Source of the DNA: Zasmidium citrigriseum
Taxonomy: Eukaryota > Ascomycota > Dothideomycetes > Mycosphaerellales > Mycosphaerellaceae
Assembly: GCA_002786025.1 (NCBI GenBank)
Contig: NHNW01000009.1
Location: 750,376-814,375 of the forward strand
Direction of reading: 5' to 3'
DNA: 64,000 nucleotides
In this document: positions 6,163 through 33,008 of the stretch, piece after piece
Layout of the letters: each line of letters starts with the position of its first letter
How positions within the stretch are numbered: position 1 is the first letter of the stretch
Notes under the pieces: model-generated
What the model was told of the DNA's origin: nothing
Databases searched by the model: none
What the model saw: only the letters and a program-made list of their open reading frames with translations
Translations under genes and position numbers: made by a program

Positions 6163-7732
6163 CTATTTATTACAAAACATCTCCACCAACGTCCCTTGCG
6201 CTTCGACCTCTTCGAGCAGCGCCATATCTAGACCAGGCTGATCGACAGCGACGACGATAGCATCGAAACTCTGCAGGTAAGAGATGTTCCAATCCTGCTT
6301 TTCATCCATCCGCGGAATGAACGGTACAGCACTCTGCTCCACAAGAGGATCCGCAAACTCCACGTAGACTTCATAGTTGCTCAACAAGTGAACCGCAAAC
6401 GCCTTGCCAGGGGAGTTGGACAGAGTCGATTGACCCCTTTTGAAGCCAAGGCCGACGATGAGGATGTGTGGTCGACTGGCCTTCGTAACTCGGGCTTGCT
6501 CCGCTGGTATGGGTGATTTTCTCCTCGTGCTTGATTCGCCTAGTCGAGAGATGATGCGGTCTGCGATGCGGGCTGGTCGGGTCCTCATTCGCTCCGTGCA
6601 GGCCTCTAGTAGAGGGAACTCGGAGTTTGAGAGAAGGTAGTAAGGGTTGACGGGGATGCAGTGACCGCCCACACCTAATGACGGAGTGTATGGCATGTAC
6701 CCGAAGGGCTTGGTGGATGCAGCACGGGCGACCTCCCAAGGATCGATGTTGATCTGAGCAGTTGGTGAGCCTTCTTGTTGCGTCTTCAATTCGATCTGTT
6801 TTCGAGAAAGCTCTGTTGATAGCTGACGGCAGGCATCTGCCATCTCGTTGGCGTATGCTATGCACATCATTCGCTGACAGTTCTCGTATAGCTTCGTCAT
6901 TTCGGCAACCTCGGGTGACGACACTGGAACCACTCGTTGAAATACCCGCGAGTACAATGTGTGGATAGATGCCAGGGAAGCGTCGTCTAACCCCGAGATG
7001 ATCTTGGGAATTGATTCGAAGGATGGAGAGATACGTCCTGGATCCACTCGCTATTCCTCGTGTTAGTTGTGCAAGTATAGCAATCGAATCTCTGACATAC
7101 CTCAGGGGACATGCCACAAAGAAGAGAGTGTGACTCCATCAAAGGTTGAAGCAAGTCTCTCGTCATGCCCACAGCAACAGAGCTCTCGATGATGACTGTA
7201 GAGCCTGGACGTGCGTGCGTGCGGATAGTCTCAATTGCGCTCCGAATGTATGATGTGTCGATGTTCTGATTGTTGTCCACGAGAGTGCTGACTGCAATGA
7301 GGAAGTGGGTGGCTTGTGACAGAGCAGCCTTGTCGGTTGTGCATGTTACTGGCTTGCCCTCCACAAGCTTCTCGACTTCTCGCACTCTCTTCTCAGAGAT
7401 GTCAAAGGCGATAACGTTGTAGGTATCCGAGAATGCCTCGACGAGATGCAACCCAACGTAGCCAGTGCCAATCACGGCCACCTTGACGTCTTCCACACGC
7501 TGAAGTTTGCTGAGGTCGAGCGTTGCGAAGTATTCGGAGTCCAAGATATCTGGGAGATCGCTCTCCGGTGGAGTTGGTGGTGGACTGAGAGAACGTCAGC
7601 ATACATGCAGAACATAACTTTCACAACTGGGCTTGCATACGTATCTGGTGCAATGATTGGGATCCATGACTTGTACTTTGGATTCGCTCTCGGTACAGCA
7701 TCGCAATAAGGCAAAGTCATGATGGCGGCCAT
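6163..7732 (-). CDS. Nucleotide-sugar (UDP-sugar type) 6-dehydrogenase, three exons
   Basis: NAD-dependent oxidation of a nucleotide sugar to its uronate is the family reaction. Exons 7732-7641, 7584-7101 and 7050-6163 join through GT-AG introns of 56 and 50 bases to give 487 residues. The Rossmann motif GTGYVGL is at about 70-76, the conserved SPERVDPGR segment is rebuilt exactly across intron 2, and the active-site cysteine lies in GVGGHCIPVNPYY at about C323. A C-terminal UDP-binding domain with ILIVGLGFKRG follows. The wording of the active-site motif is closer to bacterial WecC/WbpA-type enzymes than to eukaryotic UDP-glucose dehydrogenase. The N-terminal 40 residues are an extension. 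It ends convergently with the regulator. Exact substrate unknown. Confidence 0.88.
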
Positions 7733-9322
7733 CTCTGGTGTGATTTCAAGAGAATGAGTGATATCGAACGATGCAAATGCTGGTTTAGAAGAGGGTACTC
7801 GATGCGAGGTTTTCGTACTTTCACACGAGACACATGATTCCTATATGACTTTCGAGCCTGCCTCCAAGGCTGTCCCAGTGGTGGAGGCTCAAGGACGAAA
7901 GCCAGACACGCCATCGCCCTGATGGCGCTGTGCTCTCGCCGAACGCAGCCATCGGCGGTATGCGAGTACATGGCTTGCTGAAACATTCTCGTGGGCGCGC
8001 AATGTGCGACTAAGTTGTGAAGAGACTTCAGAGTGGCTTTTGGAACTTCGAGGCCTCAGAGATGTTCTCGATGCCATTGCTTCTGTGATGATGGCGTGAG
8101 AGTTCGAGGTTCCATCAGCCAGCCAGAGGCAAGAGAGCTTGGACATACGGTCCAGTCACTGACTAGAGCATACCAGTGCTCTGACTTCTTCGTCTCGAGA
8201 GGGCGGAAGCGAAAGCGATATTCTGGCGAGTAGTCGTCCGTGTCGAGCGTGTCGAAGCTATGTCTCCCGACACGTGGTGGCGTGAGACCGTGCATTGCCC
8301 TCTGCGCAAGGAGCATCAAGGAAGCCAGGTCTGGATGCTGAAACTCAGTCTGAGTCCTATAGAACAGTCGTGGAACAACTTTGTTTGTTTTCCTCGGGCG
8401 GCGCTAGGAGAATAAGTGCCATGGCGTTTTAGATGGCGTTTGCGACCCATCGGACGTCCCGAATTGATTACATGTTTGAGGCTTGAATGTATGCGGAACT
8501 GGGCTGCGTGAGCACGTGGGAGTGCCGCGAAATGTTGCGATCCACGCTTGCGATTGCCGCGATCCAATCTGGGAAGGTGTGCGAACTTGGGAGGACGAAT
8601 TCGGTTTGAAGGATCCCTGGGCGAAGACAAATCGAGGAGTGCTTCGCTCGATAAGATGGCCTGCATATGCGCCGTGGAAGTCGAGATGCAGATTCGAACT
8701 GGATCGAGACAGACGCGTTGGAAATTTGTGCTTGCGGCACAGTGCCATAAGCTTTGGCCTTAAGCTTAAGCTTTGGACGAGTCGTGCTGGAGAGTCTTGA
8801 TTAGCGCCGGCTCCTGCGCTGGTGTGAAGAAGCAGCTCAAAATCCCCCGGATCTCGGAGAGGCGCATCTGCAATGCGTGAGACGGGATCTGGAGCGTTGC
8901 GTGATGCCGTTGCGTTGTGACGGATCGCGATTCGAGAGGCACAGCATGACCGAGGTCGATGGAGAGATTAGATGTCTCTGACGGTCCGCCGCCCTCATCA
9001 AACTCGCATCCATCGAGTAGTGATACGACATTCATCGAAAAGCCGTGCCACCTCAAGTGTGGTGCGGCGATGTTCGGCGTGTCAGGGACTGCAAGAGGTG
9101 AGGTCGCAGACAAGGTTGCTTGCGGACCCACGACGGGATCGTCCGGGCTGAGCCGTGGGTCTGGAAGCTGAGAGCGAAGTGTGGCGGGCTGTTCACTTCA
9201 CCTTAGCATCAACGTCTGCCTCCCGTCACCGGCAACTCTCGTCCAAGCATGTACCATCACACTCCCGCTCGTCGGCCGCGAGAAGGCAACTCTCATTCCT
9301 CGCCATCCTCTCACCATCCGCC
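7733..9322. other. 1.6 kb region with only weak coding signs
   Basis: Two minus-strand stretches look mildly coding: 8090-8362, opening after a TAG acceptor, and 8766-9131, an ATG-started 121-codon frame that stands head-to-head with the chitinase. I could not join them into a model or recognise a family. The sequence at 8747-8776 contains short AAGCTT/TTAAGC repeats. The region may hold an eroded gene. Confidence 0.3.
8090..8362 (-). pseudogene. Possible coding fragment, unrecognised
   Basis: After a CTATAG acceptor at about 8363 the minus strand reads about 90 codons with a composition typical of folded protein (aromatic and acidic segments such as DTDDYSPEYRF and SEHWYALVSDW). No convincing start exon or downstream donor was found, and neighbouring frames are broken. 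It may be one exon of an unrecognised gene or a relic. The function is not known. Confidence 0.25.
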
Positions 9323-10523
9323 ATGATGATACCTGCCAAGAGCAACCCGCCCAACCGCGTTCTGGCTGCCTACTATCCCTCTTGGAAGATCTACAAGGGC
9401 TACAAACCGTCGCAACTCAGGATCGAGCTCCTGACCCACGTGTTCTATGCTTTTGCGAGGCTCGATCAAAATGGCACCCTCGTCGTAGGTCTCCTGATCG
9501 CGGCCGCGCTTGACACGAATGCCAACTATGATTGTACAGCATCTCGACGAGAAAGCCGATTCGCAACTCTCGGTTGACGGCGCTGATGGCTGTCTCGCAG
9601 CTCTCGTCGCCGAGAGGCAACGGCGCAACCCTCAACTGCGCATCTTGTTGTCAATTGGTGGCGGCAGTGGCTCAGCCAACTTTGCTGCCGTAGCCGCCGA
9701 TCACGTCAAGTCCAGGCGATTTTGCGAGACCGCGCGGGAAATGGTCGATCGATTCAAGCTTGACGGTGTAGACCGTAGGTGGTCCAATTCCTTAAAGCAG
9801 CACTCTCAGCTGATGTCTCTATTTCAAGTGGACTGGGAGCATCCATCGAACCCGAGCGAGGGACTTTCGTTTGTCCACCTGTGTTTGAGGCTTCGCGAGT
9901 ACCTTCCAGGCCCCAACTACGTTTTGTCCGCAGCTCTCCCAGCTGGAGAATGGTGCTTGCGCAATATCGACCTCGCAAAGCTCCTCAGCCCCTCTAGGGG
10001 TGATCCGGGGACAATACTTGATTTTCTCAATGTCATGGCATATGACTTTGCCGGGCCATGGACTGATGGTCAGTCCGGCCATCACGCACAGATTTATGCG
10101 TCTGCAAGCCCGCACAATGCTTTTGCCCGGCGATCGCTCGCGAAAACCGTGCAGTACCTGGTCTCAGAGCGGCACATCGACTCTCGGAAGCTTGTTATTG
10201 GCGTGCCTGCGTACGGCCGCTCCTTCCAAGGGGTCAAAGGGCCCGGCGAAAAGTTCAACTCTTGCGACATATTTGAATACCGGGAATTGCCTCTCCCAGG
10301 CAGCAGTGAGCTTATAGATCATACTCTCGGTGCTGCGAGCTGCTACGATTCAAAGGACAAGATCTGGGTCAGTTACGATTCGCGAGAGACCGTTGCAATC
10401 AAAGCTGCGCTGGCACTCAAAAATGATCTCAGGGGCCTCTTTTTCTGGACAGGGTCGTTCGACTCCCCGGAAGAATCGAAAAGCCTACTTGTAGCTGCTC
10501 ACAAAGCACTGAAGGACGGCTGA
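9323..10523 (+). CDS. GH18 chitinase, three exons
   Basis: Glycoside hydrolase family 18 enzyme that cleaves beta-1,4 N-acetylglucosamine links in chitin. Exons 9323-9484, 9540-9774 and 9829-10523 join by 55- and 54-base introns to a 363-residue protein. The second intron splits the catalytic motif: joining gives D-G-V-D-L-D-W-E, with the proton-donor Glu at about 136. The SxGG motif (LLSIGGG), the Met-Ala-Tyr-Asp strand (NVMAYDFAG) and a late Trp (FFWTGSFD) are also present. There is no signal peptide and no chitin-binding module, so an intracellular role such as wall turnover is more likely than secretion. The start is the first ATG of the exon, in a CCGCC context. Confidence 0.93.
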
Positions 10524-11362
10524 TGGTGCTATGAGAGAAACATACCATAGATTCGCCCCCTGAGTCTGCAGTAACAGTGCTTTTTCTTGCCTCCTCTACG
10601 GCGGAGGTTCAGGGGCTCGTTGACGAGGTCGGGTGCCGCTGTTCTGTCCTGAGCACAGTACCGGTACATAGTATCGTGCGATGCTCTTCGGAAGCATCAG
10701 CAGATCTACTACCAATGACCATCGGTCTCCACGAGGTGTGGCGCGCCTGATGGGAAACCGATCCATGGCCAGGCGCTGTGCTCAGGTCGATGCAGAGACG
10801 CCACAAGCACCTCCAGGCCACTCCACGCACGGAACGTCGGTCACAATATCTGACTTCCGCTAAAGGAGTATTGACTTTTTGTGTCGTTGCAGGTCACACT
10901 TCGAACGATGCCGAAGTCAAAAGACAAGGTGGCTCGTGCGCGTATTCCTGCAAGCACGTGGATGTGACTTTGCAATAGTAAACTCTGGAGAAGCCACCAG
11001 TCTAGAAGATCGCTTCACGTTGTGCCATCCGAAGTCTACGCAGGACACTGACTATGTCGAATGCTTCCAGATGCAAGCCTCGCCTTGTAACTCAGCCAGC
11101 CTGAAGCGCGACACACGCTCACCAGATACTGGAGTGGCCGTCGGCGTACGGTCTGGACATCGCTTGACATTGACAGTTGCTCGGTCTTCGCGACAGGCGG
11201 CTGCTTCAAGCGAAGGTAACTTCATCATGGAATGTTTCTTATATTCTCATCATCCTCGCTTCAGCTGCTCCACTGGCCCATATCACCATCTTCTCACAAC
11301 TCAGCCTCGCGCGACTCACATACTCCGTCCTTGCGAGCACCAAACAGCTGCCTCATTCACGC
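10524..11362. other. Intergenic region upstream of chitin synthase
   Basis: This 839-base gap between the chitinase and the same-strand chitin synthase probably contains the chitin synthase promoter and a long 5' leader. The synthase frame is open back to about 11177 but has no ATG before 11363. No other feature was seen. Confidence 0.5.
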
Positions 11363-13826
11363 ATGGTATCACACAGGCCAGATATGGCATCACATATCGT
11401 TATCCCAGATACGATGTCCGCACACGGCGAGAGCAACGATGCAATCGCCATGAACACCTCAGAAGAAAACCTTGGCTTGTCAAGTGGGAAGGCAAAGCGG
11501 CCTCAACTGTCCCACTACTCATCAAACTCCACCACATCCACCGCCACAGAATCTACAGCTCGACCATCGATATGGTCTCATGGAAACTCCTTCACGGCTT
11601 CTTCTGTCGGCGGGTCTCCTCCTCCCCTTTCACCTGAATGGACTTCAGAATCCCGAGACTATCTCCGAGTCCCCAAGCAGAAAGCGCCGCTCCGACACTT
11701 AGACGCCGACGAAGACTCGCAAGTAGCCAATGATAACCTTGAGCCGCCAGCTCCCGTGAGACTGGAACCACCAAAGAAGCCTACGATCCAGCTTAAAGTG
11801 AGAGATCCAAGGAGGGAGTTGCAAGGCGTCTCCAAGCCTCAGAGATCAAGCGAAGTCGAAGACCAAGACGAGGAAGACTTCGGCATCCAACAAGCGGTCG
11901 CCGTCCAAGCTCTTCCCGGGCTTCCATCAGATCCCGTTGAGCGTTCAGCAGCCAATACGCAATCGGAACAAGGCGCCGCGCCGCTGCTCTTCCCAACCAC
12001 ACAAATCAAAGCAGAAGTGTGGCAGGTCGATGTTGATGGCCTGCTGCGCAAATACGGACGCCGAAAGATTCTCTTTGGAAAACACACCATGCAAGCCACT
12101 CTTCTCGGCCTCAATGGTCTCTGTATCTTTGCAACGTGGTGGTGGATGAGATATTACTATATCCTCCTCCCATTCATCACGGCCACGGTGGCCCTCAACG
12201 TCGCCATGGTAGTCTCTCTGGTCATTCGCAAGACTTGGAACACCTTTCGCCCGGAGAAGAAGTACATCCCTGACGAGCCCGAAAGCATGGTCTTCCTGGT
12301 TCCCTGCTACAACGAAACCAAAGAGGAACTCATTCGATCCCTCGATTCCTTGGTCAGCCAGCGCAGGATCGAGAATCACAAACAAGCCATCATGATCGTC
12401 TGTGATGGCAAGGTGCGCGGCCCTGGAATGGAGAAGACCACCGCCGACTACCTCCTGCAAGATATTCTCACCCACAAGACCAGCCGCGAGTACGTCACCG
12501 GTGCCTACACTGCCTGGGATCAACAACCTATGGATTGTGTCGTCCAGCGTGGAGTGTACCAAGGCACTCCATACATGTGCATCATCAAACAGCAGAACCA
12601 GGGCAAACGAGATGGCTTGATTCTTGTCCGATCATTCTTGTACAACTTCAATCGCCGGCATCAAAGCCCATTGACCATCTTCTCGCCGCACTTCTTCGAC
12701 AAGATGGCCAATTTCTTGATCGAAGACGGCCGAATGCAAAATGTCGTCCACCTCGTTGGCATGGACGCCGATACGGTCTTCGATGAGAACTGTATCTCAG
12801 AGCTTCTCGAGGAGAGTCGCTACGCACACACCGTCGGCGTATGTGGGTACGTTGCCGTCGACTGGAAAGACTCATACTGGAACGCTTGGCGACTCTATCA
12901 ATCTGCCGAGTACACCATTGCACAATGTCTTCGCCGTCTCCATCAGTCGATGGTCACACACAAAGTCTCCTGCTTACCGGGATGCTGTCAACTCCTCAAG
13001 GTCTGCGAAGAGACTTGCGGCGACCACGTTCTTCTTCAACGCTTTGGCTACTGCCCCAAGTTGACCGACGGCATCTTGAAGCAGATCCGCGCCACTGCTT
13101 CCGAGGACCGAAACCATGTCTGCCACATGCTCAGCGAAAGGCCTAAGACGCAGACTCGTCAGGCACTTCGAGCCAAGGCTTACACAGATGTGCCTGGAAG
13201 CTGGTCTGTCTTCCTTTCTCAGCGAAGAAGATGGACTCTGGGCGCTACTTCGAACGACCTGTTGCTCGTCACCGCTCCGGGAGTGCAATGGTTCGAAAGA
13301 ATCATCGCAGCCGTGAACTGCTCCACGTGGTTCCTGAACCCTTTTATCTTCGCCTCAGTGGCCAGCTTTATCTTCGCAATGGTCGGTAAGTAACCACGCC
13401 TGTCTCCAAAAGATTTATAAAGACCAAGCTAATGAATCCGTAGTCGTGCCTGTCTGGATAGTCATGTGCTTCGTCAGCGTGATGCTGATCCCGATCGCCT
13501 ACTACTTCATCATTCCCCTCTGGCTCTGCAAGCAATGGAAAGAGCGAGTACAATTCTGGACTGGCTGCCTTCTGTACATCTTCTGCGGACCTTTCATCAA
13601 TATCTCGGTCCTCATTTACGCTCTGATCTATATGGACTCGTTTGGCTGGGGCAAGACTCGCAAAGTTGTTTCTGACTCGACTTCTGAGGGGACGATGAGT
13701 GAGTTGGAGAGGATAGAGGCGGGAGAGAAGAACGTCGTTGCTGCTCAGCCGCTGGCAACTAATGCTGTTGTGATGCAGAGGGATATTGGGCAAGAGGAGA
13801 AGAGTTTGGGATGGGATAGACCATAG
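11363..13826 (+). CDS. Chitin synthase (class VI-like), two exons
   Basis: Membrane glycosyltransferase that polymerises UDP-N-acetylglucosamine into chitin. Exons 11363-13385 and 13444-13826 (58-base intron) give about 801 residues. A long Ser/Thr/Pro-rich cytosolic N terminus (about 1-215) is followed by two transmembrane helices (about 243-288), then the GT2 catalytic domain with VPCYNE (about 313), MDAD (about 467), EDR (about 581) and the hallmark QRRRW (about 620). Several more helices and an acidic tail follow. The size, single domain and lack of a myosin or cytochrome b5 module resemble class VI enzymes (A. fumigatus ChsD type); the class is my inference. The start is the first in-frame ATG; ATGs at 11384 and 11414 are alternatives. 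Confidence 0.92.
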
Positions 13827-13955: not shown

Positions 13956-14323
13956 TCACTCTCCACGTGGAGGACAAATCTCTCCAGGATCGTCTGGCTG
14001 ACCCGGAATAGCAGTACACCGTGATGCACCGCTCCCCGGGTTGCCGCCTCGCGGCTTTTCTTCCATCCATGGATCTCCAAGGGTCCGTATCTATTGGAAG
14101 GATGAGCGACGCTCTTTTCACTTGTGGTTCGATACAGACCATCTCACTGGGCGCCCAGAGCATGTTCCAACTGGCTATATCGTATGGCTGTTGTAATAGT
14201 TAGTCTCGATTCAAATTGTTGGATGGGGGAGGAGGGGTGGAGGACTTGGAATCGTTGGATAGGTATTGGACTTGCGAAAGCCGTGAGGCTGCACAGAGTT
14301 GCGATTAGCACTGCGAGTTGCAT
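13956..14323 (-). CDS. Small secreted protein, array copy A
   Basis: First (leftmost) of five paralogues of an unrecognised family. Exons 14323-14246, 14187-14140 and 14090-13956 give 86 residues. Exon 1 is a signal peptide (hydrophobic core ALIATLCSLTAF-like, probable cleavage after Ala-Ser) followed by PIPI. Exon 2 is exactly 48 bases. Exon 3 contains DPW, EEKPRGG, then Cys-Thr-x-Ile-Pro-Gly and a final Cys before a short tail: two cysteines in the mature part. Both introns are phase 0 (58 and 49 bases) but the donors are weak (GTCCTC and GTCTGT), so splicing efficiency is uncertain; without splicing the first exon runs on to a 59-residue product. Likely extracellular; function unknown. Confidence 0.75.
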
Positions 14324-15342
14324 AGTCGTATTTGAGCTTCTGGTATGAGAGTTGGTAGCAGGTCTTTCGGTGAGCGAAGAGGTTTTATTTATATGTGAGG
14401 CTCGTGTAGCTCTGTTCCTCAATAGATTGCAGTACTTGCATGGTCAGATCTAGCAGTGTTGAGGCTAATTCGTCACAAGTCGTCACGAAGATCATGATTT
14501 CGATAGCACTCACATGGATCGGCATGATTGCCGTCACTGCTTGTGCTCCTGCTTCTGGTATCGGGCTGCGACCGTGCAGTCGCTATGGATAAAATACATC
14601 ATTTGCAACGTGGCATCAGGATAGCCGTAGTCCGGAGGATGATGCCGACATCTATTGCACGTGGCCTCACAACGATGTCGATCGATCTGCTTCGAGACGC
14701 TTCCAGAGATCGTGTGAGGCGACTGACGTGGGAAGCGTTTAGTCAATGCATGTCGATTGCAGCGGGTTAGGGCTGTAAGGTAAGCTTCTTGCAACGAACG
14801 CTGGCAGTAGGGGCATGATATGCATGCTCGAAGTCCGGAAATATCCTGAAGATTGAGGAATACGTGTTCCATGGCCGTACTAGTGGACAGAAATCTGCCC
14901 TAACATGTGAACGCCAAGATCATCTCCACGACACATCACAATTCTTTCGGACAAGCTGGTAGAGTCATAATCGGAACGGTGCAGCTTGTTCCGTGTCTCT
15001 GCCGTGCAGGAGAGCCAGGTGTGTGTTGTCTTGAATTGAATTTGCAAGAACCCTTTATGTCTCTGCATTTCCTTCCCTTTCCGGGCGCATCTCGAAATGA
15101 ACGTCCAGATTTCTTGATTATACAGGGAACTCCATTTCTCCAGATTATCGTACTATAACATCATAGCTTTGCCAGGATTGCAACAGCTGTTGCGATCTGT
15201 TACAACTCAGCCTTCACACGATCGTTCGCCAGCATCAACAAGAACACCACCCATCACCTCATCGAACTACCAACAAGACAGACCCATCCTTCACTTTTGT
15301 TCTTCATCACCATGCCTCCCCCTCAGCCACGAGAAGCGTTTG
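14324..15342. other. Array spacer upstream of copy A
   Basis: This 1.0 kb spacer holds the promoter of copy A and a block at about 15000-15060 that is similar to one at 16169-16230 upstream of copy B. A minus-strand frame at 14534-14872 is Cys-rich, but I could not support it as a gene. Confidence 0.45.
14383..14395 (-). promoter_or_regulatory. TATA-like element of copy A
   Basis: The minus strand reads CATATAAATAAAA about 60-70 bases before the ATG of copy A. TATA-like sequences lie at similar distances in front of the other four copies. Confidence 0.45.
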
Positions 15343-15746
15343 TTAGGCTCCAATGTCAGGACACTTGATGCCAGGTCGGCCCCGGCCTGGGATGAAAGTG
15401 CACGGGTTAGAGTGGCTCGGTATATCACCGCCCTTGGGCTTCGAGTCGTAGAATGGATCATAGTCGTCCAAATCCTATTGAGAGAGTTAGCGGAGTTGCC
15501 CTGCTACTCATGTTCATCGTGGTCCTTTCGAGGGCACAGGGACGTTTTGTGCCTATGGTGACACCCACCATTCCCTCGTCCGAAGAGAAAGAGTCGAAGT
15601 CGTCTGATTGACGTAGCTACTGGAAAATTAGCTTCCTCTGGCAGCTAAGTGGGAGACGAGCGCTGTACTTGAAGTTGCCCGGCGGGCAATGGGCTTGTCA
15701 CGGCCGTAAGGCTGAACAGAGCTGCGATGACGAGGGCGAATTGCAT
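15343..15746 (-). CDS. Small secreted protein, array copy B
   Basis: Exons 15746-15669, 15616-15569 and 15474-15343 give 85 residues. Exon 1 encodes a signal peptide (MQFALVIAALFSL core) and then TSPLP. Exon 2 is 48 bases with an acidic Ser/Asp-rich product. Exon 3 has DDYDPF, SKPKGG, SHSNPCTFIPG and a second Cys 10 residues later. Introns are phase 0, 52 and 94 bases, with donors GTACAG and GTGGGT and acceptors TAG/ATAG. The upstream TTTTCCAG acceptor would put TAG in frame, so the next TAG acceptor is used. The layout matches the other copies although protein identity is low outside the motifs. Predicted extracellular; function unknown. Confidence 0.84.
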
Positions 15747-16693
15747 TGTTCTTGTGTGTTGATTGGTTGATTGTGAGATGGTCTGTGACGTCGCTTCTTC
15801 TCCTTCCGTTGCGGCGAACGAAGTGACCGTATTTATGTCCGACTTCTCTGCTTGTATCGAGCCCAGTGATGACGCTGTCACTTCGATACAAGACTCTATA
15901 TACATAATCGTTGTCGCTATTGCTGCTTTCGTGTCGATAATGTCACTTCGATGCAAAATTGTAGTGAAAGACGTCGAGAAGCCTCGTTGTCTCGATGGAC
16001 ATCATCGTTGTTGCTATTGCTACTTTCGGCACCGGGAAGCCTTCTCGCAAACGCTATCGGAACATTAAGGCCAAGTCTTCTTGTTCATTACATCAACATG
16101 AATAAGCTTCGATCCGGAACAAGCTTTCAAAGTCATCAGCAGATCATCCATGCCATGTTTCGTACTGTTGCCGTGCAGGGAACCTCGGTGCAGGTTGACT
16201 TCAATTGAGTTTGCAACAACGCTTTCTGTCTTAGCCTCTCGAATGTTGGCAGCGGCAAGGTTGTGTTTCCAGCGTGGAAACGATGTGCCACGTGATGGTA
16301 AAGTCTTTGGCTGAAGTGAGGTTAAATTTGGTGAGACCCTCTTTTGAGTTTTGCGCTAGTCTGGCTACACAAGCCAGCCTTGCGTAGAAACTGGATACAA
16401 ATTTTTGTCATATTGCGCAAAGGTAACAAACGTCTTAACAAGGAGCAATGTTCGCTCGTGAAATGACGCGGTCAGGCAGTGGAAACACGAGATATAGCTC
16501 ACAGGCTCAGAGGAAAGAATGCCAACGTAGGACAGAAACACCATTTCGAGACCATATTTCGCCAATCTGATACACTTCGTCGAACACTAAGGCACTGAGA
16601 CGAAGCGGTCCATTTTCATTCATCTCGCCCACGGAAAGATCGTCTCCTCTACATCCAAAAACCTGTCCTTGGTGGCTCACCCTACATTCCATT
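15747..16693. other. Array spacer upstream of copy B
   Basis: No gene. It contains two local versions (about 15900-15945 and 16000-16040) of a segment reading like catcatcgttgttgctatt, also recognisable near 19460 upstream of copy E, and the block 16169-16230 shared with the spacer upstream of copy A. These are remains of tandem duplication. Confidence 0.5.
15829..15837 (-). promoter_or_regulatory. TATA-like element of copy B
   Basis: The minus strand reads CATAAATAC about 85 bases before the ATG of copy B, nearly identical to the element of copy E. Confidence 0.45.
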
Positions 16694-17146
16694 TCACGCT
16701 GGACCGTTCTCACAATGCTCCCATGGGTTGTATGGGAGGCCTGGAATCCATGTGCACGTCGAAGGTCCGCTAGGATGCTGGTCGCCTTTGGGCTTGCTCT
16801 CCCGCCACGGATCGTAACGGTAAGGATAGTCGTCCTATCAAAGGAACTTGTTAGCACTGTACTACGCTTTCTCACGTCTTTCCGTCTTGGAGGCTTCTTG
16901 GACGACGATAAGTTGTGTGGAGTTAGGAGACAAGACATGATTCAACACTGACCATCATGTTTAGGGGCGCGAAGAGGTCCCAGTCTTCTGGATAATCTCG
17001 CTGTTGAAGCATCAATAAATGAATCTGTCCGAATGATCTTTCTCAACACTGCCTGAAAGATGGGCACGTACTCGAAGACGAATAGGCAGCGGAATTGCCG
17101 CGACGGTGACGCCGAACAGAGCCGTAACGACGAAGGAGAGTTGCAT
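16694..17146 (-). CDS. Small secreted protein, array copy D
   Basis: Exons 17146-17072, 17000-16953 and 16834-16694 give 87 residues. The signal peptide (MQLSFVVTALFGVTVAA) is followed by PLPIRLR. Splicing to exon 2 joins Arg to Arg and continues DYPEDW; this dibasic site could be cut by a Kex2-type protease. Exon 2 is 48 bases and ends Met-Met. Exon 3 has repeated Tyr-Pro/Tyr-Asp residues, SKPKGD, Cys-Thr-Trp-Ile-Pro-Gly and a second Cys. Introns are phase 0, 71 and 118 bases, donors GTACGT and GTCAGT. It is the closest relative of copy C in exons 1 and 2. Likely secreted; function unknown. Confidence 0.86.
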
Positions 17147-17221
17147 TGTCTGCTGTATTCTCAAGGTTCAGGAGGTGTGTTTGCGAATCGTTGTGCTTTC
17201 GCTTCTGTGCGCAACGCATTC

Positions 17222-17236
17222 ATACTTATATATTGC
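17222..17236 (-). promoter_or_regulatory. TATA-like element of copy D
   Basis: The minus strand reads GCAATATATAAGTAT about 76-90 bases before the ATG of copy D. Confidence 0.45.
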
Positions 17237-17483
17237 CCATGATGACACATCAGTGCTGAAACACAGTCATGAACACACTGCCAGAGGAGTATCATTGGAA
17301 GCATCGATTCGAACATGTTCGGATTCACTCGCATTCGAAAAGACTGAGATCGATTTGCGCATTTGTTCTTGCGTTTCTTGCTTGGGAATTCAGCATTTCG
17401 CTGTCTCTTTGCCATGGCTAACCCAAGATTCCACTTTGCTATTCCATCGGGCGACTATAGTACAGTGGCTGTTTTCTTGGTAA

Positions 17484-17556
17484 TATGGTTAAGCTCTGAT
17501 GCACGTCGCACTCGTACTTGGACACAAACTTGCCTCTGGGATTGTACGCCAACGTA
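17484..17556. repeat. Duplicated upstream block, copy 1
   Basis: This block starts atggttaagctctgatgcac and matches 18523-18597 with few differences. Each copy lies about 300-410 bases upstream of an array gene (D and C), so the duplicated unit included 5' flanking DNA. Confidence 0.8.
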
Positions 17557-17811
17557 GTTCTATTCTATGTGAAGATTGATGGTGGTGATAACTTCTTGAA
17601 TGTAAGAAACGTAGCCATGAAGCACATGTGCTCTGGACAAGACTTTGACTCTGCAAGCTACAGTGAGGGTAGGATCATGTCACGACTGAGTCCATACAAT
17701 AGCTCAACGTAGTCACCAGAACGACCGTAGACTGCGAACGCATGGCGACTGACACACTCCGCCGGCTTCAATTTCCCATCAATATTCCTCGCCCCAGGTC
17801 CGACTCTCCTC

Positions 17812-18227
17812 CTAAGGGCAACCTTCACCAGGGTATGTCGGATCCCCTGGGATATACGTGCATGGACTAGAGTGGCTCCACGGAACGTCGCCACGGGGTT
17901 TCTCGTCGTCATAGGGATCGTAGCTATCCTGTAAAGAGAACTTGTTAGCATGAGACTATAATTACTCAATTCTCTTCGTCTAAAAGACTTCTGGGAGACA
18001 GGTGGTAGTGGCCGCTGGAGGGATGTAAGTACGGACCATCATCTCAAGAGAGGACGAATCAATCCAGTCTTCGGGGTAGCCTCGCTGTGATGAGATCAGT
18101 AACTCTTCCTTGTAAAGCTGTTTCATGAGCTCATAGGGAGAAGAATGCGTACTCGGACCCGGATAGGTAGTGGACTTGCAACGGCCACAAGGCTGTACAG
18201 AGAGATTACGATGACTGACAGTCGCAT
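17812..18227 (-). CDS. Small secreted protein, array copy C
   Basis: Exons 18227-18153, 18084-18037 and 17928-17812 give 79 residues. The signal peptide (MRLSVIVISLYSLVAVA) is followed by SPLPIRVR; splicing joins Arg to Arg and continues GYPEDW, again a possible Kex2 site. Exon 2 is 48 bases and ends Met-Met. Exon 3 reads DSYDPYDDEKPRGD, then SHSSPCTYIPG and a final Gly-Cys-Pro. Introns are phase 0, 68 and 108 bases; the second donor (GTCCGT) is unusual but sits at exactly the homologous position in copy D (GTCAGT). Exon 3 fits the family consensus best of the five. Predicted extracellular; function unknown. Confidence 0.85.
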
Positions 18228-18306
18228 CGTTCGATGTAGTTTTTGAGTTCAGGAGGAGTCTTGACTGCATGTATGATTTCTCTCTGTCCTGTCGTGCGAT
18301 GCGGTT

Positions 18307-18316
18307 GTACTTATGC
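18307..18316 (-). promoter_or_regulatory. TATA-like element of copy C
   Basis: The minus strand reads GCATAAGTAC about 80 bases before the ATG of copy C, one base different from the copy E element. Confidence 0.45.
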
Positions 18317-18522
18317 AATGCCCTTCTCTCGAATGAATGGTGAAGCTTGTCTGCTATGGCTCAGTGAAAAGGATATCGCTCTGCATCATCGCATCAGCTC
18401 CTTGAAGGCGTCGGTTCGGGAATCCTCGTATTTTCGGTTTCCAACTCTTCTGCATCGATCGTGGCATGAGAGTTCTGCTTCCAGCATCACGCTGGCTGTC
18501 CAGCATATGTGTTCAGGTCAAC

Positions 18523-18597
18523 ATGGTTGAGCTCTGATGCACGTCGCGCTCGTTCTTGGACACAAACGGTTTGTCTCCAGGATTGTATGCCAACGCA
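18523..18597. repeat. Duplicated upstream block, copy 2
   Basis: Second copy of the block at 17484-17556, with scattered substitutions and a small length change. Confidence 0.8.
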
Positions 18598-18843
18598 TGT
18601 GAGCGTTCTGGGGAAGAGACTTGGTCATTGAAACAAGCGTATCGATCACGCACATGCGCGCTAAACAGGCCTCGATTCTCAAATATAGTGACTTAGTAAG
18701 TACAGCAGCTCGACTTTGACACATTCGTAGAGCAATCCCAGACTGGCAAAAGCCCATGTAATCATTACTCTGCAACTACGGGACAACACGATCTTCCCAC
18801 TTCAGCTTCACATTAACGTCACTCGTCTTCAATCCCTCTACTC

Positions 18844-19258
18844 CTAGCAAGGCTCGTCGGGATAGAATGGCCCTATTGGAACGTTCGAGCACGGGTTGCG
18901 GTGGGGCCACGGCAAACCGCCTTGGACTTTCTCGTCGTTGAGGGGATCGAAAGGGTAGTCGTTCTGAAGAGCAAAATCAGAACTTCAGCCAATGGTGCTC
19001 TTCGCTCTCATTGTTGCTTGTGCTTGTGAAAGAGACGATGAGGGCTAGGATCTGTGCGGGCATGAGAGGTTCAATTCATACCATTTCGTCAAAGGGCAAA
19101 GGTGCGTTGCCGTGGTTTAGGTAATCTAGCTATTTAGATAGTCAGTCTCTCTCCAAATCGCTCGGAAGACGAGTGCGCACTTCATAGTTCTGTGCGACAG
19201 GCAATGGACTCGCGACTGCTGTCAGGCCGAACAGCGATATGATGAGTAAGAGTTGCAT
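18844..19258 (-). CDS. Small secreted protein, array copy E
   Basis: Exons 19258-19181, 19129-19082 and 18963-18844 give 81 residues. The signal peptide (MQLLLIISLFGLTAVA) is followed by SPLPVAQ. Exon 2 is 48 bases. Exon 3 has NDYPFDPLNDEK, a Gly-Gly-Leu-Pro segment, Asn-Pro-Cys and a C-terminal Glu-Pro-Cys, keeping the two-cysteine pattern while losing the CTxIPG wording (it has Cys-Ser-x-Val-Pro-Ile). Introns are phase 0, 51 and 118 bases, donors GTGCGC and GTATGA. It is the most diverged copy and the rightmost. Predicted extracellular; function unknown. Confidence 0.83.
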
Positions 19259-20421
19259 CTTCGTATGGAGGCGTTCAATTTGGAGGATGTGTTCAATGCA
19301 GATCCCTTGTCTATACTCTCTCGCGGGCGTCCAGATCGTATTTATGCAAGGCTCTTGTATCTGTATGGCAAGTCTTGCCTCAACCCCGTATCAAGGCTGC
19401 TGTTCCGTTACAAGATTGTTGTTGGCGGCACCGATTCGACAAGTGTCGCATCGATTGGCATTATCGTTGTTGCCGCGGCTGCTTTCAGCGTCGAGTAACA
19501 GTCTCGCAATCGGCGTCCAGAGTATAAACTTGTTGCGACTTGTCATCAGTTCCAGCCGTGTTCTACACACGAATATTAATAAGCTTTGCAGCATATCACA
19601 TTCACTTCTGAACAAGCTCAAGGTTCAGAATAATCATAGCTTGTTTTGCATCGTCGCTACAGGGGATCTCTGGATAGATGTCCCCGAAACGAGCCCGGAT
19701 CAAGGAATTGCGAACTTTAAAGACTTTGTCAAGAGGACGCTGTCAATGTTAGCATTTCCTTACATTAGCGACAAGCTGTCTTCTGGCTCTCGAGGTTTGG
19801 TCGAAGCGAAGATGTGCCACGTCACAGAGGTGAGGTCAAGATTGAGTTTGAGACAGGGGACTTGACTTGTCAATCGCCCTTGCTCCCCGTATGGCCGTCT
19901 GCAAATTCGAACATGACCGTAGGCAGCTCGTGTCTTTAGCGGAGTGCTGATTCTGTCGATGTGGGACATTAGATTTACTCAGATGGCAGGCTGAACAACG
20001 TGGCTCTTCCTTCGACCCTAGTGTACTTTAAGTGTCTCCAGGAACATATGTTTCGGTCTCGTGCAGACCTGATACGTCACGGTCCCGGCCCCTGGGTGCT
20101 GCTATGCGGTAACATGGTTCCACTGCCATAGTAGCTCGATTATGACTGAAGCTTAGCCCAGACAAGCCCAATTCATTGGCTAGCCTTAAACAAGCAAACG
20201 CTTCGTCATTGCTTCGAAGACCACAGGACCTGGCAAAAGGCTGAAACTGGACAGACGGACGAACACTCGTTTTATTTCCAGGTTATTGATTGACGATCTG
20301 CCCTAGGGTATCAACAGCGGGGTTAATCCTATGGTGTGGGGTAACAGCGAAGCATGCGGCGCCGTCGTGCCAGTTGGTTTGCAAGCCTTGCCAGAGAATC
20401 AGAGCATGGCCCGATAAACGC
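19259..20421. other. Gap between the array and the MRJP-like gene
   Basis: 1.16 kb without a gene. The left 450 bases are the copy E upstream region and show similarity to the B upstream region (cattatcgttgttgc near 19460 and aataagctt near 19582). The rest shows nothing I can name. Confidence 0.5.
19338..19347 (-). promoter_or_regulatory. TATA-like element of copy E
   Basis: The minus strand reads GCATAAATAC about 80-90 bases before the ATG of copy E. Confidence 0.45.
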
Positions 20422-21564
20422 TCAATCGTGGTCAATTGGCGATGGACCAGCATCTATTGGATACGTGAAGATGTTGTTTGGTCCCTCGGCCATCAATCCA
20501 TCTGCACCTGGCCTCATCTGCGAAGCTGGGAGCCAGAGCAGGTTGGGGTTCGCAGTAACCCACATCAGATCGGTCCAGAGCAGAGCTTCATCTTGTACCA
20601 AGATCGTTGCGCGGCCTTCCGGGGTGACCTTCCAGATCGCCAGCAAATTTGTGTCACTGACGTAGATGTTGCCATTTGCATCGATGGTCGAGCCCCCGGT
20701 ACTGGGTGTTAAGGCCACGGGTTCGGCATAATCGCCCAGGGTAGCTGCAAGAGTAGAGTTCTTGAGAGTTGCGTCGACGTATGCGGTCTTAACTTTGTAA
20801 AGTCCTCCGTTGCAGGGCTGGTAATAGAGATATTCGCCATCGGGTGACACCTCAATCTGGTCAAGTCCAACGGAGAGTGAGCTGCCGGACGGTCCGTATC
20901 CTGGAACGAGAGTGCCGTTGTCTTAAGCCAAGGATAAGTATTAGCAGATATGTCTTCAGATATCAAAAGTATACTCACACATCATGGGATACCACGCCTG
21001 CGCGGTAGGGTCGTCTGCCAGCACACGGACGCCTTTGCTGGTAGTCAGATCGAGCACGACCAAGGCGCCCGAGGTGTCACTCAGGTATGCGATCGTCTGC
21101 GCTGCGTTGAATCGAACGTCATCGATACCACCTTCCGAACCAGTGATTGGACTCAAGTAGTAGATCTTGTCCACGGAATTCGTAGTGAGGTTGACTCCGA
21201 CGAGCTTCGTGGAGCCATTCACGCCTGTCGAGCCACCATCCACTAGCCAGTACCGTCCATCGGGTCCAATGCGAGCACCATCGATGCTGACGAAAGTCTT
21301 TCGAGGATCCGAGCTGGAGTGACTTGAATTGTATGAGTTCCAAGCGGCATCTGGGTAGAGGACAGTGGTGTTGTCGTTGAGAAGTTCGACGGCTTGGGGA
21401 GGATCGGTCAATGAGTAGCGCTGTGAAAGAAATTTGCGTCCATCTGCTGAGATGCTGATGCCTTGGGTGGCTCTCTCCAGGGAGTATGCGAGCTTAAGGC
21501 CTGGTGCGAGAGCCGATGCCACGGCGATGGAGGCCAGTAGTTGGAGGGCAGTGTTGGCACGCAT
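20422..21564 (-). CDS. Secreted MRJP/yellow-like beta-propeller protein, two exons
   Basis: Exons 21564-20979 and 20921-20422 (57-base intron) give 361 residues. The N terminus is a signal peptide (MRANTALQLLASIAVASALA), so the protein is exported. The rest resembles the fungal members of the major royal jelly protein/yellow family, a six-bladed propeller: GGIDDVRFN, then the blade text IAYLSDTSGALVVLDL, and later a SPDGEYLYYQP strand and a DANGNIYVSDTN strand. Several Asn-x-Ser/Thr sites fit a secreted protein. The catalytic or binding role of fungal members is not established, and a lactonase-like role is only a structural analogy. The start is the first ATG of the frame. Confidence 0.85.
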
Positions 21565-21924
21565 TTTTCGGAGAGCAAGTCGAAGGATTCAAATGCTCGG
21601 ATTCGGTCTCCGTGCAGGGGTGTGCATCATTTTTGTACCCATTGCCATACGTGCAAGTTTTCAGTGTGCACTGTTCGTCGCCAGCGTTCTCCGCCCGTCG
21701 GCCGACTGCAAATCGCCCAAGCCGGAGATTCTTGCTTCAAGATCCACAACATAGCCACTTGTGATTACCAATTCTCAAACACCATGACGACGACCAGTGA
21801 TTTTTTCATCATTGTGTTCGCGGCTTGATTGACAAATTGAGTAGGTCAAGGTTGAAATGGGGCCGTGAGAGCGGTCCTTTCAGCGGCGGGGACCCTCGCC
21901 GTCCTGGAGGTGAGCCAATTGTAC
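21565..21924. other. Intergenic/5' region
   Basis: This 360-base stretch lies between the divergent MRJP-like gene and the hydrolase-like gene and probably holds both promoters. A 5' exon of the hydrolase gene could lie here, because its frame is open back to 21865. Confidence 0.4.
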
Positions 21925-25863: not shown

Positions 25864-26436
25864 GGAAAAGACGTGATGGCAAGGGAAGGCCCCATCCAGT
25901 ATGGCTGAATACTTGGCAAAGGCAGGTCTTCCTGGTATTTGTCGATCTGTCGAAAACTTGGGGGTACTTTTGCGAGATTTCGAAGAAGAGTACTTTATTG
26001 ATCACTTTCCGAACCTCGAAAGTCTTCACGTATCGGAATGTCGTCATGAATGGAGCCTTCTTCTGTCTGGCAGAGTAAAAGGCACGAGTCATGCGGCAGT
26101 CGGCAGTTGACGGCAAGCCGCTGCATCCCGCGGCAGGAAACAACAGGTAAGTCTAGACTTCAGGGAGAGAATCATGTCCCATCACTCTTCAACAGACGCA
26201 TGCGCAGGATGTCTCTAACAATGCGCGCAGCAGAGAGGCGCACTCGTCCGTCCGCCCGCGAAGAAAGGTCTACAGGCCCGAAAGTGGCTGGTGCCTGATC
26301 GATCTTGACGATCGCCGCTTCCCTCAGCTGGCCAGCGTGGCTAGATCTCAGCTTCTGGCCACCACTCTCCTTCCATACATGGCAAGAAATCTGGTCCGGC
26401 AAGACTCGCTGAATTGGACATGTGAGCAGCCCCGCC
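25864..26436. other. Intergenic region before the HET gene
   Basis: This 573-base gap has only short frames. It probably holds the HET gene promoter. No repeats or RNA genes were recognised. Confidence 0.45.
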
Positions 26437-27999
26437 ATGGAACAACGGCCGTATCGCCCTCAACCACGAGCGGACCAAACACAGCCACTTACCACTTGCT
26501 ACAAGCCTCTCGCAATAGGCCAGATTCGACTACTTGACATCCAAGGCTTTGACGACCATGATACTCTTGTCTGTTGTCTTAAGCATACACCCCTAAATGA
26601 TGCGGCAGGGGCCTACACTGCAGTCTCTTACACTTGGAATGAAAACGAGCGGATCTGGTACGGAAAGAATCACGAACCGCCGTCTCAAACCATGGTCATC
26701 GACGGACTGGCCGTTGATGTCCCCGGCAAGGTTGCTGCAATCCTCGCCTTGATGCGAAAGGCCGGTCGAAGCCTAGTCTGGATCGACTCAATCTGTATCA
26801 ACCAATCGGACACGGAAGAGAAGAACCAGCAGGTGAAACTCATGGGCGACGTATACGCTTCAGCATTCGAAGTATCTGCAGTGCTAGGATCTCCAGACAA
26901 GGCAACGGACAGCTTCTTCGACGCAGCGAATAAATGTACTTCAGACTCGAAGATCGCTTTGACCACGGATCTCGACTTCGGGCACGTTAGCATCCATGTC
27001 AACGATTACTGGCATCGCGCTTGGATCTTTCAGGAGCTTTCTCTGGCCCGTAAGATAGTACTGTACTGTGGATCTCGCTGTACTTCTTACGAGGCATACA
27101 CGGCTCTGTACGGGCCCTGGCTCAAGAAATCATTCCGTGTGTTGACTCTTTGTAAAATAATCTGGAAGCTGCCTATCAGGGAATCAAAGAGAGAGTTCGT
27201 CATCACCGCTAAACGCTTCGACTTTGGTGGCTACGTACCACTCCTCGCGGGGACTCAGCAACCATTTCTCTCCGTTCTCGACTTAACGAATAACTGGTAT
27301 GATCGCGCCAGTGATCCGCGGGATTTACTCTTCTCACGACTTTCACTGGCATCCGATGCTGACGTACTGGTTCCACGCGTCGACTACGGAATGTCGACAG
27401 AGGAGCTGTACATCGAATTTGCTGCAAGAAGCATCCCGAGCACACGATCGTTGTACGTCATCACCTTCGCCAGCAATACAGCTATGAAGCTGCCATCATG
27501 GGTCCCCGATTGGACCTCAAAAGAGTGCATCTGGTCGACACAGAAACACCACGAAGAACACAGCATAGACCTGTTCCGTATTCCTTGGAATCTTACCCCT
27601 GACATCCCTCGAATCTCTCCATGCGGTCGAAAACTCACTGTTCAAGGGCGAGTCCTCTATACCATCCGCCGCAGAAGTCGCACCTTACTCTTTCTCTCCT
27701 TCGCAGGAGCCCGCGTGAATATAGGAAACTTGCGTAGTCCCAACATCCCTGCGGAGAGAGTAAAGCCTGGCGACCTCGTCTGCATCCTCGGGGGCTGTCC
27801 CATTGCCATGTACCTCCGGCCCATTGGAGATGAAGAATTCGTCATCGTTGGTCGACACAAATTCTATCAATGGGGAATCGATTGTCCTTGTAAATGGAGA
27901 ACTCGTGCGTCTTGTAGTCCCTTGTACTATCGCTTTGCGGATCCCATGAAAGCAGAGGAGTTGGAGAAGATCCCGGAGCGGGAGTTTACGATTGTTTGA
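26437..27999 (+). CDS. HET-domain protein
   Basis: Single-exon 520-residue protein with a heterokaryon-incompatibility (HET) domain in its N-terminal half: YTAVSYTWN at about 61-69, then the LVWIDSICINQSD block, then the VSAVLGSPD block and the HRAWIFQELSLAR block. HET proteins of filamentous fungi trigger cell death after fusion of incompatible hyphae or act in innate-type recognition; the HET fold is TIR-related. The C-terminal part has no further recognisable domain. The start at 26437 is the first ATG, in a GCCATGG context. Such genes are often multi-copy and found in variable regions, which fits its place beside the retrotransposon island. A specific partner cannot be inferred. Confidence 0.92.
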   Translation: MEQRPYRPQPRADQTQPLTTCYKPLAIGQIRLLDIQGFDDHDTLVCCLKHTPLNDAAGAYTAVSYTWNENERIWYGKNHEPPSQTMVIDGLAVDVPGKVAAILALMRKAGRSLVWIDSICINQSDTEEKNQQVKLMGDVYASAFEVSAVLGSPDKATDSFFDAANKCTSDSKIALTTDLDFGHVSIHVNDYWHRAWIFQELSLARKIVLYCGSRCTSYEAYTALYGPWLKKSFRVLTLCKIIWKLPIRESKREFVITAKRFDFGGYVPLLAGTQQPFLSVLDLTNNWYDRASDPRDLLFSRLSLASDADVLVPRVDYGMSTEELYIEFAARSIPSTRSLYVITFASNTAMKLPSWVPDWTSKECIWSTQKHHEEHSIDLFRIPWNLTPDIPRISPCGRKLTVQGRVLYTIRRRSRTLLFLSFAGARVNIGNLRSPNIPAERVKPGDLVCILGGCPIAMYLRPIGDEEFVIVGRHKFYQWGIDCPCKWRTRASCSPLYYRFADPMKAEELEKIPEREFTIV

Positions 28000-28241
28000 T
28001 GATGGAGGCGATGTATGTTTGATCTGGCATGACATGCAAGACCGCGAGGAGGAAAGATGTCAGAAACGTTTTCAATAATCTCTGCGAATATTTGAATAGA
28101 ATGCTCGGCAACTGACGGTGATTGATCAACTTCGGTCTCGGGATCGCACGTGAACGGAAGTTTACCGCGTCTTCCACAATCTTTCGCACGTTGATGAGCC
28201 AACCTTAGGCACAACCTCACCTCTCAACACAGACTCCAGCC

Positions 28242-28328
28242 ATGGCCCAGAACGTCCTCCTCGAGACGTCCATGTGCTCCATCGTCGTGAAGCTGTACAC
28301 GTCGCCCGCGCCAAACATGTGGAGGTGA
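28242..28328 (+). pseudogene. Truncated duplicate of the cyclophilin gene 5' end
   Basis: The 28-codon frame starts [11 protein letters not shown] and is recognisably the first exon sequence of the cyclophilin at 37291 ([11 protein letters not shown]). After about 25 codons the similarity stops and a TGA follows. The DNA just upstream also shares motifs with the cyclophilin 5' flank. The fragment lacks all catalytic residues. It ends 31 bases before the left LTR of the retrotransposon. Differences from the intact gene are mixed substitutions, not only C-to-T or G-to-A. Confidence 0.8.
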
Positions 28329-28354
28329 TTTAGACTTAGTATTAAAAAAAAGTC

Positions 28355-28359
28355 TCTTT
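28355..28359. repeat. Target site duplication, left
   Basis: The five bases TCTTT directly precede the left LTR and recur at 34886-34890 after the right LTR. Confidence 0.8.
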
Positions 28360-28485
28360 TGTTATGCAGCAGGATTATGGCCTTTATATAATAATTGAAT
28401 AATTGATTAAAGATTAACTATCTAAGAGGTGCAAATTCTAATAGTGTAGCTTCCTTAGTACTTACGTAACCCTATAGGTATAATA
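28360..28485 (-). repeat. LTR (3' LTR of minus-strand element)
   Basis: 126 bases, matching 34760-34885 at a constant offset of 6400 bases. Differences are almost all G/A or C/T. The outer end begins TG on the plus strand, and its inner end TAATA corresponds to CAACA in the right copy. Confidence 0.88.
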
Positions 28486-28495
28486 CTCCCCCTTA
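28486..28495 (-). other. Polypurine tract of the retrotransposon
   Basis: The minus strand reads AAGGGGGAG next to the left LTR, the position expected for the plus-strand primer of an LTR element and the basis for the orientation call. Confidence 0.65.
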
Positions 28496-31171: not shown

Positions 31172-31193
31172 NNNNNNNNNNNNNNNNNNNNNN
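31172..31193. other. Assembly gap (22 N)
   Basis: A run of 22 unknown bases inside the retrotransposon; the true length is not known. Confidence 0.99.
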
Positions 31194-33008
31194 TTTCCCT
31201 AAAATTAATTCTAGCCCTTTAGGTAAACCCTTTTCTAGTCTACCTAGCCTTAAACTTCTTAATAATATCGTTTAGAAGCTACTTAGTCTTAAATACCTAT
31301 TTATACTTTATTAGGATTCTTTCTTTAGGTATCTAAGTCTTCTTAACCTAATCTAGAGTATTAGTTTCTTATAAAGACTTAATCTCTTTAACTATAGCTT
31401 TCTTCTACTACTTATATTAAGGATTACTAGGAGTAAGAGCTTCTTAAATAGTTTTAGGATTAGAGTACCTTTTTATAGCTCCTCCTATATATACTAGGCT
31501 ATTTAAGTATATATCCTTATAGTTATAGGTAGTAACTTGCCTCCTAGACCTTATAGGTTTTATCTTAACCTTAGGTTTAGGTCTTTTCCTTTTAATCTTA
31601 GGTTTAGGAGTCCTTTTCCTTTTACTAGTTATTTAGATAGGCTTAAAGGGAGTTTAGGGTATATTAAACTACTCTATATTCTTATCCTAGGTATTCTATA
31701 TATCTAGGGATTAATTCTAAGTCTCTTAGACCTTAGGTTCTTATACTAACTACTTAAACTCTCTATTTTATACTCTAGAAGGCTAGGCTTATAAGGAGGT
31801 AAGGTTAGAATAGAGCTTAGGCTATAAACTCTATTATAACGTTACTTTATATAGTAGTTACTTAACTTAGGTAATATACTTAATAATTAGAGTATACTAT
31901 ATATATAGAGGCTCTTATAGCTTATTATACGATAGTACTAACTCCTCCTAAGTCCTAAAATGCTTATAGATAATAGGTCTTAGCTAGGCTAGAGGTTCTT
32001 CTAGTTCCTATTAGGGATCTTATTATATAGGCTCCTAAGTATCTCGTAGGCTCTTACTAAAGAGCTCCCCCTAAGCCGTAAGAGGATTAGTACTATACTA
32101 GCGTATAATATAATAGCTATATAGCTTAGCTTTATTAAAAGTTATATATAGTAAGGTAAAGAACTTATTAATATAGGTACCCTTTTATTAGTCCTATTTA
32201 GGTCTCTAGTAGATATAGTTTATTATAGAGTTCTCTTAAAAACCTATAAATTAGGCAATAGTTACTCTAGTATTAAACTTAGTAGATTTAAGCCTTATTT
32301 TAACTAGAATATAAATATAGGCTTTATATCTAAAGACCTTAAGTAAGATTAAATCCTTAAGGCTAGTATCTCTAGCCTTTAAATCCGTAAGGAATTATCT
32401 TATAGGTATATCCTTAGTCCGAATATTTCCTAAGACGTTAGCTAGGAGGATTATATATTAGATTATAAAATCCTAGAGCTTACGAGGAAGGTTAGCTCTA
32501 ACTAGTATAGATCTTACTCTAAATAAAATAGACTTATTAGATAACTCTAAGATTCTATTTTACTTAGGTATATATAGAGTAGATATATCCTACCTAAGAC
32601 TAAGTTAAGTAGCTATATACTTTAACTTATTATTAATAAACTCCCCTCCCCTATCTAAGAAGAAGAGCTTTAGGTACCTATAGTACTAAGTAATTAATTT
32701 GTTTATAAAGTACTAAATGTAGGCTATACTATCCCCTTTAGAGGCTATAGTAAAGGTAAAGCGTATCCTTATCTTTATATCTATTAAAATAAATAGAAAT
32801 CTATACCTAAGTATAGTTAGTAGCGTAATTAGGCTAATTAAATCTATATAGATCTTATCTAGAGCTATCTTAGGCTTAGGCCTTAGTCTTCTTAAGACCT
32901 TTCTTTAAGATCTTATAAGTTTATAAGTCTTATAGTAAGTTAGGGTAGAGATATTAATATTCTCTATTCCCTAAGTAAAGTTCTTAGTAAGGTTAAGGAT
33001 CTTTCCCT

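Follow-up and report, generated by a model that had tools for sequence, protein, structure and literature searches.

What do five small, strongly diverged genes for secreted proteins, lying one after another on the same strand of a fungal contig, encode, and where could such a family have come from? The question is raised by an array at positions 13956-19258 of a stretch of Zasmidium citrigriseum DNA that was analysed at its full length of 64,000 nucleotides (contig NHNW01000009.1, positions 750,376 to 814,375; hereafter the window). Our analysis suggests that the five proteins are probably relatives, with one unit each, of a secreted peptide that is processed by Kex2, because the repeated unit of a precursor gene found elsewhere in the genome, on contig C77, aligns with exon 3 in all but one of the copies.

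The five genes and their products

The initial annotation had proposed five minus-strand genes of three exons each, encoding proteins of 79-87 residues, and all of them were recovered where it had placed them, in the order A, B, D, C, E from left to right (Table 1). As sequence models, these genes can be regarded as confirmed. Exon 1 (25-26 codons) would encode the signal peptide and exon 3 the cysteine-bearing module, while exon 2, nearly fully diverged in sequence, measures 48 nt (16 codons) in every gene. The ten introns (49-118 nt) are all in phase 0 and run from GT to AG throughout, the latter by construction of the models, and none of the five joined frames contains an internal stop. With an exon 2 of this size, the array illustrates how genes of short exons can escape scans for open frames.

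Judged by hydropathy only, a signal peptide is predicted in all five proteins (grand average of hydropathy 1.84-2.19 over the first 16-17 residues). It is directly followed by PLP or PIP in each of them, and each mature part holds two cysteines, as had been proposed; the A protein has a third cysteine within its signal peptide. The other two motifs of the original description, a K-P-[RK]-G-[GD]-like segment and CTxIPG, hold for four copies (as KP[RK]G in the former case), whereas E deviates and carries KVQG and CSNVPI instead. The commonest form of the exon-3 module is DP..KP[RK]G..C[TS]x[IV]P..P..C, acidic and rich in proline and glycine, with a gap of 12-13 residues between the cysteines. 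The dibasic pair RR occurs once in C and D only, across the junction of exons 1 and 2. Pairwise protein identity among the copies is 35-51%.

Small size, secretion and two cysteines would also suit cationic antimicrobial peptides or precursors of cyclic ribosomally synthesised and post-translationally modified peptides (RiPPs) of the UstYa type. The mature parts are, however, acidic (isoelectric point 4.1-4.9, net charge -3.5 to -8.4). Among the UstYa matches listed for the genome (at least 43), the sole one on the array contig, at 108 kb, is separated from the array by about 656 kb, and none is on C77. On charge and on this distance, respectively, both readings were rejected as very improbable. 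Several of the UstYa matches fall on contigs C129, C58, C76 and C112 and may mark RiPP-type clusters.

Common descent within the array and coding constraint

Homology among the five copies is far above chance. When each copy was left out in turn, profiles built from the remaining ones recovered it with expectation values (E) of 4e-19 to 3e-7 for exon 3, the match to E being the weakest, and of 8e-10 to 3e-6 for exon 1 (Table 1); in the six-frame translation of 104 kb, the best match outside the array reached E 0.059. Variation is greater at third than at second codon positions, in exon 1 (p=0.0013; 17 versus 3 columns, with 5 ties) as well as in exon 3 (p=0.03; 20 versus 9 columns, with 11 ties), and the same comparison is non-significant in exon 2 (p=0.11; 8 versus 3, with 5 ties). 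Positive selection, for which the initial annotation had suggested a test, is not supported: the ratio of nonsynonymous to synonymous divergence (dN/dS, NG86 values) is 0.24-0.67 in all ten pairs, with dS of 1.0-2.3, near saturation. Because of this ratio, the bias in codon positions and the high dS, the coding sequence appears to be constrained and the duplications old, with no sign of dominant positive selection. Segment-wise pairwise identity was uninformative, with nulls near 60%, except for a stretch upstream of C and D.

One might still suspect pseudogenes, or models wrongly built over conserved DNA, and some of the donors are indeed weak (GTCCTC in A, for example). The intact frames, the constant length of exon 2, the conserved intron phases, the TATA-like boxes and the codon-position bias speak against this explanation, which we find scarcely credible.

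A repeat precursor as a possible relative

The gene on contig C77 consists of a 26-codon signal-peptide exon, a phase-0 intron of 57 nt, and then RR followed by three units, each of the form AA[VL]DPLIEASQPKGPVR[PS]SGPSDCHGDGSGKDCPP, with two cysteines and a length of 39 codons, joined by KREA or KRDA (repeat period 117 nt, 2.9 copies). From its sequence, this is the layout of a predicted Kex2/Ste13-processed repeat precursor. The position of its intron is shared with the array genes. For every copy except E, the best alignment of exon 3 with the C77 unit spans DP, the KG region and the first cysteine, and it extends in A, B and C to the second cysteine and CP. The summed Smith-Waterman score of the unit against the five exon-3 modules was reached by one of 4000 shuffles, and by three of 4000 when the cysteines were kept fixed; against single copies, the number of shuffles (of 4000) reaching the real score was 0 for D, 26 for A, 201 for B, 320 for C and 929 for E. 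The C77 signal peptide scores 35-44 against those of the array, compared with 15-26 for the signal peptide of the alpha-pheromone precursor. When the family without exon 2 was compared with a one-unit C77 precursor by hhalign, a probability of 95.6% was obtained over 62 columns, with a score of 43.5, higher than in any of 600 shuffles (200 under each of three nulls; best scores 41.8, 32.9 and 18.0). Common descent of the array and the C77 precursor is, in our estimation, fairly likely.

Several observations weigh against this view. The likeness to C77 was noticed after the fact, and on a genome-wide scale it is weak. The 44.4-Mb assembly was queried with A, C, D and E at full length and with exon 3 of B (E<=10), which gave at least 29 matches, self-matches included: 27 within the array, where single copies retrieve each other (with E of, for example, 4.0e-7, 1.1e-6 and 6.0e-7), and two outside it, both obtained with D, on C113 (E 0.0057) and on C77 (E 0.34). 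The former, a 203-residue frame that we take to be a zinc-cluster regulator, was judged a chance match though nominally the better one. In the reverse direction, a full-length C77 query of the genome did not retrieve the array. The exon-3 profile matches the whole C77 precursor with E 8.1 only (1.5 million frames assumed), its score for the real unit was equalled by four of 5000 shuffled units, and hhalign with exon 3 alone returned a probability of 24.5%. One shuffle that kept the signal peptide came close to the real score (41.8 versus 43.5). The E module has no likeness to C77 beyond chance, and those of B and C have a modest one. KR sites, which join the C77 units, are absent from the five array proteins, and a comparison of the DNA upstream of the C77 gene with that upstream of the array genes found nothing in common beyond chance. 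Finally, no confident fold is predicted for the exon-3 module (predicted local distance difference test score 58, predicted template modelling score 0.20).

What the secreted peptides may do

The five intact paralogs would encode small secreted peptides acting outside the cell, and we see about an even chance that they serve as peptide ligands, the likeliest of the roles considered. Following removal of the signal peptide, the two cysteines would close a disulfide loop, the peptide would be released, and the loop might form the recognition element for another cell; exon 2 would then be a short divergent spacer between the signal and the C-terminal module. The array probably descends from, or shares an ancestor with, a Kex2/Ste13-processed repeat precursor like that on C77. 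Diversity would be achieved by five single-unit genes rather than by repeats inside one protein, so that the fungus could secrete five different ligands, directed most likely at other hyphae or strains, or at a host or competitor. A bolder proposal, which we consider unlikely, is that the array took over the job of the repeat precursor: an ancestral two-cysteine Kex2/Ste13 peptide would have been recast as five single-unit genes with separate transcription, each yielding its own loop ligand for recognition among hyphae or competitors, perhaps together with the neighbouring chitin/hyaluronan-type glycan genes.

Kex2-processed repeat proteins of fungi have been described (PMC7329392), and the array shares with them the signal peptide and the short secreted module. 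In the C77 gene their repeat anatomy is complete, with three units of two cysteines each and KR-EA/DA spacers; the array differs in having a single unit in each protein and no KR, so that internal repeats are lacking and the diversity is spread across genes.

Likeness to mating alpha-pheromone precursors had to be considered as well, given the signal peptide, the SPLP string (an XPXP sequence, possibly Ste13-like, after the signal), and the Cys...PG...Cys arrangement. A secreted precursor and, in four of the five copies, a PG turn between the cysteines are shared with such precursors, including the single-unit alpha-factors without KEX sites reported in Erysiphaceae (PMC10569646). Alpha-pheromone precursors contain repeats of a mature peptide of 9-14 residues, with a GQ or PG turn and flanking Ste13/Kex sites. 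The array proteins, however, have one unit each and no KR, their cysteines are 12-13 residues apart instead of 6, and the alpha-pheromone precursor scores only 9.9 against the family profile in hhalign, which is background level. A canonical precursor is moreover encoded by a separate gene on contig C20 (Table 1), which largely refutes the array as a mating pheromone and leaves this explanation with an almost negligible probability.

Small secreted candidate effectors of Dothideomycetes are typically small proteins with cysteines, tandemly duplicated and without detected relatives, and the array is like them in all these features, secretion included; it differs in its single possible disulfide and in its acidic, proline- and glycine-rich composition. 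The copies could thus be effectors proper, directed at a host or at microbes, expanded in tandem and unrelated to processed peptide hormones. Their small size, secretion, two cysteines, tandem arrangement, divergence and lack of relatives in the protein database would all agree with this, whereas dN/dS below 1 does not favour it, and the likeness to a Kex2-type repeat precursor points elsewhere, though such peptides can be effectors. We regard this alternative as rather unlikely; an effector role as such is a possibility, and from the sequences we infer a function as either signalling ligand or effector. The suggestion of the initial annotation that the genes are candidates for self/non-self signalling gains some support, since the gene most likely related to them in this genome is built like a repeat peptide precursor of the Kex2/Ste13-processed type.

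If the link to C77 is true, it gives this seemingly orphan family of secreted fungal proteins a concrete origin, and it predicts five disulfide-looped C-terminal peptides in the culture fluid. If it fails, the array adds to the many lineage-specific families of small secreted proteins in fungi.

Searches for described relatives

The view of the array as a tandem family of diverged secreted proteins with two cysteines, and one that has no counterpart in the databases searched, is supported. None of the five proteins exceeded a Pfam gathering score (two sub-threshold matches had E 0.19 and 0.29), and NCBIfam gave no match to A and C, the copies searched. In a database of 5.8 billion proteins, the family alignment shared words with 307 candidates and copy C with one, none of them at E<=10. 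This database covers close relatives: the Tsr1 protein of the window is 89% identical to an entry of Zasmidium cellare, likewise 89% to another entry, and 74-82% to entries of Lecanosticta, Pseudocercospora, Cercospora, Zymoseptoria, Fulvia and Septoria, genera which, like Zasmidium, belong to Mycosphaerellaceae. Absence from it is nonetheless no proof, because annotation easily misses genes of such a build. Five matches to solved structures (E 0.34-1.9) were judged unrelated, and Rfam found nothing at 8-28 kb of the window. Among the papers listed by literature searches, none was recognised as dealing with this family, as judged on titles and the openings of abstracts. Within what was searched, the array is thus apparently an undescribed small family of a general kind, fungal secreted peptides in tandem, that is already known.

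Upstream elements and genomic surroundings

A TATA-like box precedes each of the five genes, at -70 to -91, and upstream stretches are common to the pairs C-D, B-E and A-B (Table 1). A genome search with the C-D element yielded two places, both within the array. The element upstream of B returned only itself and missed its known copy upstream of E (72.6%), so that a search of this kind does not see copies of about 73% identity.

Table 1. Positions of the array genes, their upstream elements and other features (window coordinates unless a contig is named), with leave-one-out E values for the genes
Feature	Location	Strand	Details	E, exon 1	E, exon 3
Gene A, 86 aa	13956..14323	-	exons 14323-14246, 14187-14140, 14090-13956	5.5e-8	5.5e-13
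Gene B, 85 aa	15343..15746	-	exons 15746-15669, 15616-15569, 15474-15343	3.2e-9	6.7e-13
Gene D, 87 aa	16694..17146	-	exons 17146-17072, 17000-16953, 16834-16694	3.2e-6	2.5e-12
Gene C, 79 aa	17812..18227	-	exons 18227-18153, 18084-18037, 17928-17812	7.7e-10	4.3e-19
Gene E, 81 aa	18844..19258	-	exons 19258-19181, 19129-19082, 18963-18844	1.1e-8	2.9e-7
TATA-like box of A	14384..14393	-	-70		
TATA-like box of B	15828..15837	-	-91		
TATA-like box of D	17221..17230	-	-84		
TATA-like box of C	18306..18315	-	-88		
TATA-like box of E	19337..19346	-	-88		
Element upstream of B, two copies	15895..16053	-	resembles 19451-19512		
Upstream element of D	17482..17554	-	partner of 18520-18595		
Upstream element of C	18520..18595	-	85.5% identity over 76 nt to 17482-17554		
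Upstream element of E	19451..19512	-	72.6% over 62 nt to 15992-16053		
Putative Kex2/Ste13-type repeat precursor	contig C77, 207914-208396		141 residues		
Alpha-pheromone precursor	contig C20, about 17848-18126		long frame, eight exact CGVPGQACNKR and variants, EA-rich spacers		
Nucleotide-sugar dehydrogenase frames	6163-7595		left of array		
GH18 chitinase frame	9498-10523		left of array		
Chitin/hyaluronan-type synthase frames	11174-13826		left of array, end 130 bp from gene A		
Two-frame protein	20422-21588		right of array, hydrophobic N-terminus, no Pfam match		
HET-domain gene	26413-27999		about 7 kb right of array		
AT-rich block of repeat-induced point mutation (RIP) type	28200-34600		GC 0.28, TpA/ApT 1.93, substrate index 0.07		

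On its left the array adjoins three glycan genes, for a dehydrogenase, a GH18 chitinase and a synthase that is chitin-synthase-like, with a weak likeness to NodC below the cut-off. In Trichoderma atroviride, chs8 lies beside the deacetylase gene cda1, with a gene for UDP-GlcNAc 6-dehydrogenase further upstream; mycoparasitic confrontation induces both chs8 and cda1, and CHS8 is a special chitin/hyaluronan synthase with the motif QRKRW (PMC7053769). The stretch at 6163-13826 recalls this neighbourhood; no chitin deacetylase match lies on its contig (0 of 11). It might be supposed that the array proteins are partners of these glycan genes in the extracellular matrix or at the cell surface, in view of the short distance to the synthase frame and of the Trichoderma arrangement. 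Adjacency is, however, the sole basis of this idea; the four array upstream elements tested had no match near the glycan genes, no deacetylase match lies on the contig, as stated, and the synthase carries QRRRW, because of which it is not established as CHS8. A partnership of this kind seems quite improbable to us.

The accessory region proposed by the initial annotation is not supported. The array is located on a contig of 1.017 Mb, and the same window contains, among others, Tsr1, phosphomannose isomerase and a dynactin-type protein; a RIP-type block does, on the other hand, start about 9 kb away. To the right of the array there are a Mid2-like protein and the two-frame protein, within which the frame at 20959-21558 is similar to the solved structure 2qe8 (E 1.9e-7). 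A HET-domain gene stands farther to the right, and another is found at a distance of about 5 kb from the precursor on C77 (L044, 5004-7808), a pairing that may be coincidence.

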